A stretch of 64,000 bases of DNA from an uncultured Actinomycetes bacterium (GCA_903920435.1 CAIXMB010000094.1:1-64000); one strand, 5' to 3'. Numbered from the stretch's first letter, positions 3,666-61,088 are shown. Notes: generated from the sequence alone by a model not told the origin. Translations and numbers: made by a program.

Positions 3666-3847
3666 GCACGCCAGACTATTCGCTCGAAAATGCAAAAGAC
3701 TCCTCGCGCACCCGCCAGAGCCCGGTTACCCTTGCTACGTTTCCGTCCTGGGGGAGTTGGCCTGGATGGCGCCACGCGAGGAGCCATCTAGATTCTAACG
3801 CTATGATTCCATGAGGTCTTCAAGCCGTGCTCGGCCCAGACCCGCCA

Positions 3848-3935
3848 GGAGAATTCGCCTAGTGGCCTATGGCGCACGCTTGGAAAGCGTGTTGGGTGAA
3901 AGCCCTCGGGGGTTCGAATCCCCCATTCTCCGCCA
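3848..3935 (+). tRNA. tRNA-Ser(GGA), CCA encoded
   Basis: GGAGAAT/ATTCTCC acceptor stem, anticodon loop TTGGAAA (GGA at 3882-3884), long variable arm, GGTTCGAATCC T-arm, encoded CCA at 3933-3935. Confidence 0.95.
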
Positions 3936-54174: not shown

Positions 54175-54271
54175 GGTCCCGCAAATCTACCAGCGGGTCT
54201 CACATGTGTTTCAGAGCAACTACCAGCCATGATTGAAGCGACAACCTTCTTCTGAGCCGACAGGAATTGCC

Positions 54272-54940
54272 GTGCCCGATCCCGCCAAGCCCACCGTCAA
54301 GCAGCAGCGCGATGCCCGGAGGGCGGAGAAGGTCGCGGCCATGCAGAAGCAGATGGCCACCCAGAAGCGCAATCAGCGCATCGGCCTCATCGGCGGGATC
54401 GTCGGCGGCGTGCTCGTGCTCGCCCTCATCGTCACGTTCGTCATCGTGAGCGCCACCCCCAAGGTCGACCCGAGCTCGATCACGATCGACGGCATCAAGA
54501 CGTTCGGCACGCTCTCCGCGACCCACGTCGACGGCACCGTCGACTACGAGGCCGACTACGGCATGAACCCTCCGGCGGGCGGCAACCACAACGCTGTGTG
54601 GCTCAACTGCGGCGTGTACGACCAGCCCCAGGAGAACGAGCACGCCGTGCACGCGCTCGAGCACGGTGCCGTGTGGATCACCTACGACCCCGACGCCCTC
54701 ACCGCCGACCAGCTGGCCTCGCTGCGCAACAAGACGCCGAGCACCTACGCGATCCTCTCCCCGTACCCGGGGCTGCCCGCGCCCGTCGTGATCTCCGCCT
54801 GGTCGGCGCAGGTGCAGCTCGACGGCGTCGACGACCCGCGACTCGACGAGTTCATCAAGAAGTACCGGCTGTCGCAGGACGCCCCGGAGCCCGGCGCCGC
54901 CTGCACCGGCGCACTCGATGGCCCCGGCAAGCTCTCCTGA
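54272..54940 (+). CDS. DUF3105 domain-containing membrane-anchored protein
   Basis: N-terminal basic segment and one TM; GTVDYEADYGMNPPAGGNHNAVWLNCGVYDQPQENEHAVHALEHGAVWITY. Confidence 0.88.
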   Translation: MPDPAKPTVKQQRDARRAEKVAAMQKQMATQKRNQRIGLIGGIVGGVLVLALIVTFVIVSATPKVDPSSITIDGIKTFGTLSATHVDGTVDYEADYGMNPPAGGNHNAVWLNCGVYDQPQENEHAVHALEHGAVWITYDPDALTADQLASLRNKTPSTYAILSPYPGLPAPVVISAWSAQVQLDGVDDPRLDEFIKKYRLSQDAPEPGAACTGALDGPGKLS

Positions 54941-55595
54941 GTCGGCCCCGGACCCGGGGCGCCGGGTTCGGCTCGCCATCGCCGCAGTGCTCACGGCACT
55001 GCTGCTGGTCGCGGCATCCCTCGTCATCGGCCGCCTGAGCGCGCCGCAGCAGAGCACGCCCACCGACACGAGCGCCGAGGCCGGCTTCGCGCGCGACATG
55101 CAGGTGCACCACGCGCAGGCAGTCGAGATGTCACTGACGGTGCGCGATCTCACGACCGACCCCGAGGTGCGCCTCCTGGCCTACGACATCGCGACCTCGC
55201 AGTCGCAGCAGTCGGGTCAGATGTTCGGCTGGCTCAACCTCTGGGGGCTGTCGCAGACCGCGTCGCAGCCCGCGATGACGTGGATGACGCTCCCCGCGCT
55301 CGACGGCGGCGGGCACGAGATGGAGATGGGCACGGGCACGGATGCCCCGCCCGCCACGATGCCCGGCTACGCCACCCCCGAGCAGCTCGCGCAGCTCAGG
55401 GCCGCGACGGGCGTCGAGGCCGAGAAGATCTTCCTCACGCTCATGATCGCCCACCACAAGGGTGGCGTCGAGATGGCGGAGGCCGTGATCGCACGCTCGA
55501 CGAACTCCGTGGTCGTCGCGCTCGCGACGAGCATGGCGCAGGCGCAGACGAGCGAGATCGGCGTCATGGAGGACATGCTCGCAGCGCGTTCCTAG
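54918..55595 (+). CDS. DUF305 domain-containing protein (ferritin-like fold)
   Basis: AGFARDMQVHHAQAVEMSL and LMIAHHKGGVEMAEAVI paired His motifs; N-terminal TM. Confidence 0.9.
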   Translation: MAPASSPESAPDPGRRVRLAIAAVLTALLLVAASLVIGRLSAPQQSTPTDTSAEAGFARDMQVHHAQAVEMSLTVRDLTTDPEVRLLAYDIATSQSQQSGQMFGWLNLWGLSQTASQPAMTWMTLPALDGGGHEMEMGTGTDAPPATMPGYATPEQLAQLRAATGVEAEKIFLTLMIAHHKGGVEMAEAVIARSTNSVVVALATSMAQAQTSEIGVMEDMLAARS

Positions 55596-57025
55596 GCGAT
55601 GAGGCGAGACCCGGGCGGCACGTCGACCCCGGCGGCGGAGAGCGCGGAGTACGCGAGCGTGCGGCGGTTGTCGATCTCCTGGCCGATGTCGCGCGCGAGC
55701 TTGGGCCGTGACTTCACGAGCCCGTCGAGCACGCCCACCGGGATGAACAGCACGGCGAGGTCGGTGGTCGCCGTGACCCGGGCGGAGACGCCCTGCCGGG
55801 TGAGCGCCGTCAGCCCCACCACGTCGTCGCGGTCGAGGGTGGCGAACCGCACCTCGGCGCCCGCCTCGATGGGCGTCGCGATCTGGGCGGTGCCCTCCAC
55901 GATGTAGCGCATGCCGTCGGGGACGGTGAGCGGGTGCTGCACGACCTCGCCCTCGCCCCACCGCTCGAGCCGCGCCTGGGGTGCGACGACGAGCACGTCC
56001 TCCGGCGTGAGGTAGAGCGCGGGAGCCATGCGCCGCACCGCGGCCTCCACGTTAGCGGGGGTGTTGTAGTTGTCGGTGAGGTCGCCGTCGAGGTGCAGGT
56101 CGGCGCGACGCGCGGCGTACCAGAGGCGCGTGCGGAAGGCCTTGATCGAGCTGGCGTTGTCCGCGGGGCTCGTGATGGGGATCTCGACCTCGTACTTCGC
56201 CTTGGGCATCGGGGTGATGGTCGCGGGCTCGCCCGGCACCGCGGCCGGCAGGTCGGCGGCGACGCGCATGCACACGTCGATGACCTGCTGCGGCGCGTCG
56301 TCCGTCGCGAACTTCACGACGATGTCGAGTTCGAACGGCGAGGGCTTGCGGCTCAGGTTGAGGAACGCCGAACTCGCGAGCGACGCCGTGGGCATGACCA
56401 GCACTCCCCGCGCGGTCTTGATGTGCACGGCTCGCCAGTTGACCTCGACGATGCGGCCCCGGGTGCCGTTCACCTCGAGCCAGTCGCCGAGCTGGAAGGG
56501 CTGCTCGAAGAGCAGCAGCAGGCCCGTCACGATCGAGCCCACGGCGTTCTGCAACGAGAGGCCGATGACGATCGAGCCCACGCCCAGGGCGGCGAAGAGC
56601 CCGCCGACATCGGCGTTCCAGACCGCGGAGAACAGCACGGCGAGGCACACGATGATGAGGATGATCCGCACGATGTCGACGAAGATCGACGGGATCTTGC
56701 TGCGCCAGGTGCCCTCCTTCGCGGTCACGAAGAGCGCGAAGTTGAGGGTGTTGAGCAGCACGAGGATGACCAGGAAGCCGAAGAGCGTCGCCACGACGCG
56801 CGTCCAAGTGAGCTCGATGTTCACGTACTGCGCCTGGCTCATGAGCAGCAGGAGCGCACCCACGGGCGCGACGTAGTTGCGCAGCAGCACGACGATGCGG
56901 GAGGCCCTGCTCCCCCGCCGCTCGAGCATGCTCTGCACCTCGGTGAGCACGAGCAGCACGACGGGCAGTCCGATGACGACCCCGACTGCGGGCCAGAACC
57001 AGGGCTGCGACCAGAAGGCGGTCAC
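55592..57025 (-). CDS. MscS-family mechanosensitive channel with C-terminal cyclic-nucleotide-binding-like domain
   Basis: ALGVGSIVIGLSLQNAVGSIVTGLLLLFEQPFQLGDWLEVNGTRGRIVEVNWRAVHIKT pore/beta domain; C-terminal cNBD-like region GMRYIVEGTAQIATP...DRDDVVGLTALTRQGVSARVTATTDLAVLFIPVG; GTG start 57025. Confidence 0.9.
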   Translation of the reverse strand: MTAFWSQPWFWPAVGVVIGLPVVLLVLTEVQSMLERRGSRASRIVVLLRNYVAPVGALLLLMSQAQYVNIELTWTRVVATLFGFLVILVLLNTLNFALFVTAKEGTWRSKIPSIFVDIVRIILIIVCLAVLFSAVWNADVGGLFAALGVGSIVIGLSLQNAVGSIVTGLLLLFEQPFQLGDWLEVNGTRGRIVEVNWRAVHIKTARGVLVMPTASLASSAFLNLSRKPSPFELDIVVKFATDDAPQQVIDVCMRVAADLPAAVPGEPATITPMPKAKYEVEIPITSPADNASSIKAFRTRLWYAARRADLHLDGDLTDNYNTPANVEAAVRRMAPALYLTPEDVLVVAPQARLERWGEGEVVQHPLTVPDGMRYIVEGTAQIATPIEAGAEVRFATLDRDDVVGLTALTRQGVSARVTATTDLAVLFIPVGVLDGLVKSRPKLARDIGQEIDNRRTLAYSALSAAGVDVPPGSRLIA

Positions 57026-59202
57026 GCCTCGACCCCGGCGTGCACGTCGTCCGGATCCACCCGCCAGACCTTCTGCGGACCGGTCGCCGTGTTGACGAAC
57101 CCCCAGTCGCGCACATGGACCGTGTCGGGCATCCGGTCGACGACCTGCTGGGTGAGGAAGATGCCCGAGTCGCGGTTGGTGCCCTGCAGCTGGAAGGCGA
57201 GGTTCACCGCGTCGCCCCACAGGTCGTAGGCGATGTGGCTCTGGCCCACGAGCCCGCTCGTGACGGTTCCCGTATCGATACCCGCACGGATGCTGAGGCT
57301 CGTGCCGTGCTTGCCGCCGTAGCGCTCGGCGATCCGCTCGAGCTCCATCGCGAAGTCGACCATGCGGCGGGCGTTGTCCACGCGCGGGATCGTGAGGCCG
57401 CAGCTCGCGAGGTAGCCGGCGCGCGTGGTGCGCACGCGCTCGACGCCGTACCGGTCGGCGGCCTCGTCGAAGGCGCGGATGATCTCGTTGAGCTTCTCGA
57501 GCGCATCCTCCGAGGGCAGGCCGCGGCTGAACGCCTCGAACCCGACGATGTCCGCGAACAGCACGGACACCTCCTGGTGGTCGAGCACGATGGTCTGCGC
57601 GCCCTCCTTGTACTTCTTCACGAGCGGCTCGGGCATGAGCGAGAGCAGGAGCCGCTCGTTCTCGGCCTGCTGCTCCTCGAGCAGGGTCGCCTTCACCTGC
57701 AGGCTACGGCTCATGTCGTTGAATGCCGCGCCGACGTCCGCGAGCTCGTCGCTCGTGCCCGCGTCGACCTGCACTCCCGTCTCGCCCGCGGCGATGCGGC
57801 GCGCGGCGTCGCGCAGGCGCCGCACCGGCCGCACGATCACCCCCGCGATGACGAGCGAGAGCAGCGACACCAGGAGCACGATGATCGCCGACGACAGGAC
57901 GAGGTTGCGAGTGAAGTCGTCGACCGGCGCGAACGCCTCCGAGCTGTCGATCTCGGCGACGATCACCCAGTCGAGCCCGTGCAGGTCGAGCGGCGCGTAG
58001 GCGGCGATGGTCTCGCTGCCGAGGTAGCCGACGGCGAGGTTGGTGCCGGTCTTGCCCTCGGCGGCGGTGCTGACGGCATCCGTGCGCACCGGCTGCACGA
58101 GCAGGGTGTTCCCCGTCTCGACGGCCTGCCGGGCCGCTTCGGGCGGAGTGCCCGCCTCGATCGCCTGCTTCTCGTAGTCGTCGGGGTGTTCGATGAGGTC
58201 GCGCGACGCCGACCGCATGAGGTTGTCCTGCGCACCGACGATGTACGTCTCGCCCGTGCGCCCGAGGCCGCTCGCCTCCCAATCGCCGCCGCCCGTCATG
58301 ACCTGGTTGATCGCCGCCACGGGCAGCTCGACGGCGAGCGCTCCGACGATCGTGCCGTCGACTGCCACGGGCGTGACCGCCCATGCCGCCGGCACGCCGA
58401 GCGACGGCGGGTAGTCGGCGAAGTCGGTGAACTCGACGGTGTCGGCGACGTTGCCGGTGAGCGCGGCGGAGTACGCGGCGGCGAGGTTGGTGCGCTGCAG
58501 CGGTCCGGTGTCGAGGTTCGTGCCGAGGTCGACACCCTTGTATGCGGTGTAGACGACGTTGCCCTTGGTGTCGAGCAGCAGCACGTCCTCGTAGGTGAAG
58601 AGCTCGGTCATCCGGCGGAAGTAGTCGTGGTACAGCGCGTGCGCCTGCGACCACTCGCTGCCGTCGCCCGCGTCGTCGACGGCTATCGCATCGGCGAAGC
58701 TTGCGGCCTTGGCCGTGTAGTTGAGCTGCAGGTAGGCCTCGGCGGGGTCGGTGGGCACGAGCGTCGACGCGTCGACGGTGGCGCCCGTCGCGCTCGCGAG
58801 CTGCGGCCCGAAGGTGCCCGTGTAGTACGCCTGCAGCGTGGCGCGCTCGTCGGCGGTGAGCTCGCGGCCTTCCAGATCGGCGAAGCCCGCGGAGAACGCC
58901 TGCACCGCCTCGCGCACGCTCTCCCCCCGCGCGTTCAGCAGGAGGGTGCTCTCGATCGTGTCGAACAGATCCTGCATCTCGCGGGCCCGGGAATCACGCA
59001 CCTCGACGAGGCGGTTGAACGCGGCATCCCTGAGCGAGTCCCGCCCGTTCACGTAGCCGATGAGCCCCACGACCACGCTCGACGCCACGCTCACCAGCAG
59101 CAACCTGATGAGCAGGATCGAACGGATGCTCAGCCCGGCCTTCATCGTCGTGCTGGGCAGCACGATCGTGCCCTGTGCGGGCGGAATGGGCGGGGTTGAC
59201 AC
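57022..59202 (-). CDS. dCache-HAMP-class III nucleotide cyclase homology domain receptor protein
   Basis: Two TM helices flanking a dCache-like extracytoplasmic domain, HAMP VIVRPVRRLRDAARRIAAGE, CHD VSVLFADIVGFEAFSRGL...YDLWGDAVNLAFQLQG. Confidence 0.92.
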   Translation of the reverse strand: MSTPPIPPAQGTIVLPSTTMKAGLSIRSILLIRLLLVSVASSVVVGLIGYVNGRDSLRDAAFNRLVEVRDSRAREMQDLFDTIESTLLLNARGESVREAVQAFSAGFADLEGRELTADERATLQAYYTGTFGPQLASATGATVDASTLVPTDPAEAYLQLNYTAKAASFADAIAVDDAGDGSEWSQAHALYHDYFRRMTELFTYEDVLLLDTKGNVVYTAYKGVDLGTNLDTGPLQRTNLAAAYSAALTGNVADTVEFTDFADYPPSLGVPAAWAVTPVAVDGTIVGALAVELPVAAINQVMTGGGDWEASGLGRTGETYIVGAQDNLMRSASRDLIEHPDDYEKQAIEAGTPPEAARQAVETGNTLLVQPVRTDAVSTAAEGKTGTNLAVGYLGSETIAAYAPLDLHGLDWVIVAEIDSSEAFAPVDDFTRNLVLSSAIIVLLVSLLSLVIAGVIVRPVRRLRDAARRIAAGETGVQVDAGTSDELADVGAAFNDMSRSLQVKATLLEEQQAENERLLLSLMPEPLVKKYKEGAQTIVLDHQEVSVLFADIVGFEAFSRGLPSEDALEKLNEIIRAFDEAADRYGVERVRTTRAGYLASCGLTIPRVDNARRMVDFAMELERIAERYGGKHGTSLSIRAGIDTGTVTSGLVGQSHIAYDLWGDAVNLAFQLQGTNRDSGIFLTQQVVDRMPDTVHVRDWGFVNTATGPQKVWRVDPDDVHAGVEA

Positions 59203-59228: not shown

Positions 59229-61088
59229 CTACTGCACCTGCTGCGCGTAGAGCGACGAGTACATGCCGCCGGCGGCGAGCAGCTCGGTGTGCGTGCCGTG
59301 CTCGACCACCCTGCCCGCGACCACCACGAAGATGACGTCGGCATCGACGACGGTGGAGAGCCGGTGCGCCACCGCGATGGTCGTGCGGCCGCGCGACGCG
59401 GTGTCGAGCGCCTCCTGCACGACCCGCTCCGAGATCGAGTCGAGCGCACTCGTGGCCTCGTCGAGGATGAGCACGGCCGGGTCTTTGAGCAGCACGCGCG
59501 CGATGGCGATGCGCTGCTTCTCGCCACCGGAGAGGCGGTAGCCGCGCTCCCCCACCACCGTGTCGTACGCGTCGGGGAACGACACGATCGTGTCGTGGAT
59601 GTTCGCGGCCTTCGACGCCGCCACGAGCTCGTCGAGGGTCGCGTCGGGTTTGGCGTACCTGAGGTTGTCGGCGATCGTGGCGTGGAACAGGTAGGTCTCC
59701 TGACTCACGATGCCGATGTTGCGCACGAGCGAGTCGGCCTCGAGGTCGCGCACGTCGTCGCCCGCGAACAGCACCCGGCCGGATGTCACGTCGTGCAGCC
59801 GCGGGATCAGGTAGCTCACCGTGGTCTTGCCCGCGCCCGACGGTCCCACGAACGCGGCGAACTGGCCCGGCTCGATGGTGAGCGAGACGCCCTTGAGTGT
59901 CGCCGGGCTGTCGCTCGGGGCATCCGGATAGCGGAACACCACGTCGTCGAACTCGATCCTGCCGAGGTCGGGGGTGCGCACGGCGTGGGCGTCGGGCTTG
60001 TCGGTGATGGCGGGCACGAGGTCGAGGTACTCGAAGATGCGGGCGAACAGCGCCGACGAGGTCTGCAGGTCGAGCGCGACGCGCAGCAGCCCGAGCAGCG
60101 GGAACATCAGGCGCGCCTGCACCGTGGTGAAGGCCACGATGGTTCCCGCCGTCACATCGACGCCGCCCGTGATGAGGTAGGCCGCGACGATGTAGATCAC
60201 CGCGGGGATGATCGACAGGAAGATGTTGACCATCGCGAAGAACCACTGGCCGCTCATCTGCTGGCGCACCTGCAGCGAGATCTGGTTCTGGTTCTCGGCC
60301 TCGTAGCGCGCGGTCTCGGCCTTCTGCTGGTTGAAGCTCTTGGCCAGGAGGATGCCCGAGACGCTCAGCGCCTCCTGGGTGATCGCGGTCATGTCGCTCA
60401 GCGACTCCTGCGTCTTGGTCGCGATGCGCGCGCGCACCTGGCCGACGCGGCGCTGGGCGATCACGAGCACGGGCAGCAGGATCACCGCGACGATCGTCAG
60501 CTGCCAGCTCAGCACGAGCATGCTCACGAACGCCGCGATCACGGTCACGGTGTTGCCGATGACGCTCGAGATCGTGTTGCTCAGCACGCCCGCCACGCCG
60601 CCGACGTCGTTCTGCAGCCGCGACTGGATGATGCCGGTCTTCGTGCGCGTGAAGAACGCGAGCTCCATGGCCTGCAGGTGGCCGAAGAGCCGGATGCGCA
60701 TCGCCCCCATCACCTTGTTGCCCACGTTCGCCGTGAGCCAGGTCTGCCAGACGCCCAGTGCCGCCGACAGCACGAGGAGGCCGACCATCGCCCCCACGAG
60801 CTCGAGCAGCACGGGCACGTTGGGCCCGCCGGTCGGCGGGAAGAGGCCGACGTCGAAGAGCTGCTTGGTGAGCAGCGGGGGGAGCACCCCGAGCCCGGCG
60901 CTCACGAGCACGAGCACGATGGTGACCGTGAGGGCTGTGCGGTGCGGTGCGAAGAGCCCCATGATGCGCTTCAGCAGATCGGGGATCTTCGGCGCCTGGG
61001 CATTCGCCGCCCGCTGCGCCGCGGCGTCGCCGCCACTGACCCGGCCGCCGCGGCCGCCCCCGCCCCCGCCGCCGTGCATTCCGCTCAT
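59229..61088 (-). CDS. ABC transporter ATP-binding/permease (exporter half-transporter)
   Basis: TM domain followed by NBD: GPSGAGKTTVSYLIPRL, LSGGEKQRIAIARVLLKDPAVLILDEATSALDSISE. Confidence 0.93.
   Translation of the reverse strand: MSGMHGGGGGGGRGGRVSGGDAAAQRAANAQAPKIPDLLKRIMGLFAPHRTALTVTIVLVLVSAGLGVLPPLLTKQLFDVGLFPPTGGPNVPVLLELVGAMVGLLVLSAALGVWQTWLTANVGNKVMGAMRIRLFGHLQAMELAFFTRTKTGIIQSRLQNDVGGVAGVLSNTISSVIGNTVTVIAAFVSMLVLSWQLTIVAVILLPVLVIAQRRVGQVRARIATKTQESLSDMTAITQEALSVSGILLAKSFNQQKAETARYEAENQNQISLQVRQQMSGQWFFAMVNIFLSIIPAVIYIVAAYLITGGVDVTAGTIVAFTTVQARLMFPLLGLLRVALDLQTSSALFARIFEYLDLVPAITDKPDAHAVRTPDLGRIEFDDVVFRYPDAPSDSPATLKGVSLTIEPGQFAAFVGPSGAGKTTVSYLIPRLHDVTSGRVLFAGDDVRDLEADSLVRNIGIVSQETYLFHATIADNLRYAKPDATLDELVAASKAANIHDTIVSFPDAYDTVVGERGYRLSGGEKQRIAIARVLLKDPAVLILDEATSALDSISERVVQEALDTASRGRTTIAVAHRLSTVVDADVIFVVVAGRVVEHGTHTELLAAGGMYSSLYAQQVQ

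Follow-up and report, generated by a model that had tools for sequence, protein, structure and literature searches.

We describe an obligate two-gene module of actinobacteria, in which a membrane receptor with a cyclase homology domain (CHD) is paired with an MscS-type channel ending in a domain with the cyclic nucleotide-binding (cNBD) fold. Synthesis of the messenger by the receptor and its recognition by the channel both appear to have been lost, and we think it rather probable that the pseudo-cyclase serves as the ligand-sensing subunit of the channel by direct contact, in analogy to KCNH homology domains. A broader proposal, in which a cAMP relay has become a relay without a messenger, a pseudo-cyclase gates an MscS-type channel by contact and actinobacteria, including mycobacteria, thereby possess a ligand-gated role for MscS, is put forward tentatively, since we rate it slightly below an even chance.

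The pair lies on the minus strand of the 64,000-nt stretch of DNA that was analyzed (the window), and its features are collected in Table 1. Both open reading frames begin with GTG and have the positions and lengths given in the initial annotation, 726 aa for the receptor and 477 aa for the channel (478 when the stop is counted), and the 4-nt overlap described there was confirmed, GTGA containing both the stop of the receptor gene and the start of the channel gene. Genes overlap in 155 of the 180 pairs read, by exactly 4 nt in 111, which shows that the overlap does not arise by chance and supports the proposal that the two genes are translationally coupled. A scan for promoters and terminators yielded nothing useful.

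Table 1. Positions of the receptor–channel pair and its domains and motifs in the window.
Feature	Position	Strand	Basis
Receptor pseudo-cyclase, dCache-HAMP-cyclase homology domain	57022..59202	-	ORF, Pfam, AlphaFold model, fold search
Extracytoplasmic dCache sensor region, residues ~111-420	57943..58872	-	dCache_1 in relatives; pLDDT mostly 90-97
HAMP domain, residues 452-502	57697..57849	-	PF00672, 3e-13
Cyclase homology domain (CHD), residues 539-715	57058..57588	-	PF00211, 3.5e-31; dN/dS 0.10-0.17
Degenerate motif R591-T-T-R-A595-G-Y597	57412..57432	-	Arg replaces the substrate Lys, Ala the second metal Asp
D664-A-V-N667-L-A-F-Q671	57190..57213	-	Alignment: transition-state Arg to Gln in the window copy
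GTGA overlap, receptor stop/channel start	57022..57025	-	Sequence; 155/180 pairs overlap
MscS-type channel with C-terminal cNBD-like domain, 477 aa	55592..57025	-	ORF, Pfam, model, Foldseek
Predicted pore-lining helix region, residues 140-176	56498..56608	-	Best-conserved channel part; MscS fold
cNBD beta-roll and C-helix, residues 351-464	55634..55975	-	pLDDT mostly >90; CAP match; dN/dS 0.11-0.18
Altered phosphate-binding cassette GLTALTRQ, residues 404-411	55793..55816	-	Family motif GxTxLTR[QE]

The architecture originally assigned to the two proteins was borne out by Pfam, AlphaFold models and Foldseek. In the receptor, Pfam recognized the HAMP domain and Guanylate_cyc; dCache_1 fell below threshold in the window copy and was found in 13 of 16 relatives, and the AlphaFold model (mean pLDDT 85) has a two-lobed sensor layout together with a long N-terminal helix. 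The CHD adopts the class III cyclase fold (TM 0.82–0.86 to solved bacterial cyclase domains), which places the receptor by fold among the class III nucleotide cyclases. The channel (mean pLDDT 86) matched MS_channel_2nd (3e-16) and cNMP_binding (1e-7, above cut-off). Foldseek searches of the PDB agreed on an MscS core and matched the C-terminal domain to Thermus thermophilus CAP (E 5e-8), so that the predicted cNBD fold is present. The channel thus shares with bCNG channels an MscS core and a C-terminal cNBD fold.

The pair is conserved well outside its source genome. A scan of named genomes gave 357 candidate relatives, and the best 80 of these, which were read, belong to Microbacteriaceae, Mycolicibacterium/Mycobacterium, Propionicimonas and unnamed bins. 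The channel lies directly behind the receptor in 79 of these best 80, the remaining locus stopping at a contig edge; over all 180 loci read, which are partly redundant and represent 169 distinct pairs, it adjoins the receptor in 179, the exception being a contig edge. Of the 250 Microbacteriaceae genomes scanned, 35 have both receptor and channel, 215 have neither, and none has one alone. In the mycobacterial genus, the receptor was found in 200 of 248 genomes, with the channel adjacent in the loci read. Nine mycobacterial loci (L191, L196, L199, L200, L207, L208, L211, L212 and L217) have two complete modules each, either in tandem or separated by several kb, and the duplicated modules show no swapping of partners between paralogues. 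The trees of receptor and channel mirror each other with r 0.97, a value that linkage alone could yield. This neighborhood survey upholds the conserved actinobacterial sensor–channel module that the initial annotation had postulated.

It could be argued that the two proteins act independently and are co-expressed for reasons of stoichiometry or history, with the channel as a plain safety valve against osmotic stress and the receptor signaling elsewhere. Genes of a single transcript do often stay together, but the complete lack of singletons in 250 genomes despite patchy presence, the duplication of whole pairs and the strict partner fidelity would be difficult to account for if the two did not depend on each other functionally, and we consider independent action very unlikely. 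Receptor and channel form an obligate module.

Neighboring genes differ between Microbacteriaceae and mycobacteria, and only the pair is common to both. A search for a conserved third partner showed that an ABC exporter recurs upstream and a CBS gene downstream in Microbacteriaceae; neither was found beside the mycobacterial pair. In the window, 26 bp separate the end of the ABC exporter gene (59229–61088, minus strand) from the receptor start downstream of it; relatives of the exporter precede the pair in 38 of the 80 loci (best 80 of 357 candidate relatives), and exporter and receptor are possibly part of the same transcript in Microbacteriaceae. Behind the channel lie convergent DUF3105 and DUF305 genes (54233–55595, plus strand), an arrangement kept in about 12 related loci. 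Elsewhere in the window, a small SRP RNA (minus strand) adjoins a tRNA-Ser(GGA) (plus strand) at 3692–3935. In a distant actinobacterial lineage, two genomes (loci L036 and L037) have two divergent cyclase homologues flanking one MscS–cNBD channel, and a third (G212) apparently has the same arrangement split across contigs C46 and C49. The presence of two cyclase homologues around one channel suggests that the receptor there may be a heterodimer.

A mycobacterial cyclase of solved structure served as the alignment reference for the catalytic residues of the receptor. The window copy keeps the first metal Asp (D551) as well as D664 and N667, and it carries R591 in place of the substrate Lys, A595 at the second metal Asp site and Q671 at the position of the transition-state Arg. 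In a set of 170 non-redundant receptors, only 2 have the second metal Asp (168 lack it), and neither the substrate Lys nor the full catalytic set occurs in any. The window receptor thus has one of the two metal Asp residues that mark an active class III cyclase, and lacks the combination of substrate Lys/Asp and transition-state Asn/Arg. Two other cyclases from genomes with the module, taken as controls, retain the canonical GDAVMA motif. We infer from these substitutions that the CHD is catalytically inactive. Residual nucleotide binding is nonetheless possible, since 157 of the 170 receptors still have the first metal Asp and 42 have the transition-state Asn together with the Arg. In missing a metal Asp the receptor resembles Rv1359, which has been described as a probably inactive, metal-Asp-deficient homologue of class III cyclases (PMC3961136); it differs in being a dCache receptor tied to a channel and in having lost the other metal Asp.

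The channel has lost its cNMP contacts as well. In either alignment register, the Glu and Arg of the phosphate-binding cassette (PBC), which contact the ribose and the phosphate of a cNMP, are each found in 0 of 170 channels. In this respect, and in having an obligate receptor partner, the channels depart from the bCNG type. The PBC is replaced by a GxTxLTR[QE] motif, with T409-R410-[EQ]411 in 147 of 170 channels. The tail that follows the C-helix, compared by eye, is not common to both main clades. Both altered domains remain constrained: in comparisons of the window copy with four relatives, the dN/dS of CHD and cNBD (Table 1) stays below that of the sensor domain, which indicates that both domains are under purifying selection and are not decaying.

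The initial annotation had offered nucleotide-mediated signaling as one option. In such a relay the receptor would be a cyclase, weak or unusual, and the cNMP that it makes would gate the bCNG-like channel next to it. The intact cyclase and cNBD folds and the mostly retained first metal Asp speak for it. In the source genome (96% complete) the single PF00211 match is the receptor and the single convincing PF00027 match is the channel; a second, weak PF00027 match was rejected as a cNMP domain and is a cupin by sequence. No other PF00211 match was found in 41 of 44 module-bearing Microbacteriaceae genomes, and any cAMP in these would therefore come from the receptor. In the actinobacteria available to Shenoy 2004 (PMC2447327), class III cyclases alone were reported, which makes cyclases of other classes in the host unlikely. 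However, the catalytic set is complete in no receptor, both cNMP contacts are gone from every channel, the host offers no other class III homologue as a source, and the canonical motif persists in two other cyclases of module-bearing genomes. We regard a nucleotide relay as highly improbable, and conclude that the module of the initial annotation was right and that its relay was probably wrong. Direct protein contact, offered there as a second option, would be the one remaining.

A parallel drawn to Pycsar was not supported either. The likeness consists of a two-gene architecture and a weak PycC profile match for the receptor (7e-7), whereas the receptor of the module lacks the catalytic set, a search for a Pycsar effector beside the cyclase gave no PADLOC match for the channel, and no defense neighborhood was seen around the pair.

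The main rival to direct contact is an altered ligand. The GxTxLTR[QE] pocket would bind some other small molecule or an anion, with the pseudo-cyclase acting as a nucleotide-binding sensor or as a scaffold. A degenerate PBC is no proof against ligand binding; the motif that has taken the place of the cassette is strongly conserved (G404 in 169, T409 in 162 and R410 in 159 of 170 channels), as binding sites would be, and several arginines of the CHD, including R613 and R627, are invariant. Yet the motif could equally support the fold or touch the partner, no linked ligand-making gene was seen, and it is the receptor that is the invariant partner. An altered ligand seems to us unlikely.

With messenger synthesis and recognition apparently lost, and with the two genes inseparable and constrained, direct contact between the CHD dimer and the cNBD is the simplest reading. 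The two gene products would form one receptor–channel complex, with the dCache domain as the sensor of an extracellular ligand; the ligand-induced change would travel via the HAMP domain and a signaling helix to the CHD dimer. That dimer, which would no longer make cAMP, would touch the cNBD-like domain of the channel, and this contact would open or close the MscS pore or set its tension threshold. The contact itself, control by a ligand, activity of the channel and the direction of gating are all predicted properties of the pair. MscS is a heptamer and the receptor would be dimeric, a symmetry mismatch that counts against a receptor–channel complex. With 76 effective sequences at 80% identity, inter-protein co-variation analysis by mean-field DCA with a reduced alphabet was underpowered; its top pairs were scattered and gave no interpretable signal. 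Direct contact has a precedent in KCNH channels, in which the cNBD fold is not regulated by cNMP and acts by direct contact with a sensory (PAS) domain (PMC7515569). The channel of the module likewise has a cNBD fold without cNMP contacts; it differs in that its pore is of the MscS type instead of a voltage-gated K+ pore, and in that its partner is a separate pseudo-cyclase receptor; a motif for an intrinsic ligand was not identified in it.

The proposed kinship to the Rv2435c/Rv2434c pair of Mycobacterium tuberculosis gains support from published primer sequences. MSMEG_3578 is listed as the M. smegmatis orthologue of Rv2435 (PMC3961136), and the RT-PCR primers published for it in the same study match mycobacterial loci with 1–2 mismatches; one of them reads LHNGYL, which places Asn at the second metal position. 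These matches support the assignment of the mycobacterial members as Rv2435c/MSMEG_3578 orthologues, the channel lying directly downstream of the orthologous receptor in mycobacterial loci. Primers for the Rv2435c promoter had no match among the loci read. MSMEG_4477 was rejected as an orthologue of Rv2435c, since PMC3961136 lists it against Rv1900. Our reading departs from the literature seen, in which Rv2435c and MSMEG_3578 figure as adenylate cyclases (PMC4822843, PMC7739888) and Rv2434c as a candidate member of a cAMP pathway (PMC11205783); we found no text there on a loss of cNMP chemistry at both receptor and channel. Modern Beijing strains reportedly carry a 213-bp deletion, RD311, that inactivates Rv2434c (PMC8386458), a naturally occurring loss of the channel orthologue. 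In M. smegmatis, D113G in MSMEG_3578 was present alongside an lsr2 mutation in an isolate resistant to phage (PMC10066036).

Taken together, our results describe a module that is real, conserved and under-described. If the contact mechanism is true, one protein now counted as an adenylate cyclase of M. tuberculosis and M. smegmatis would be the sensory subunit of a channel, the neighboring 'cNMP-binding' protein would be the pore of that sensor, and the count of mycobacterial cyclases would change. The module would then offer a counterpart of KCNH homology domains in bacteria, as well as a two-gene system for direct tests of MscS gating by an extracellular ligand.
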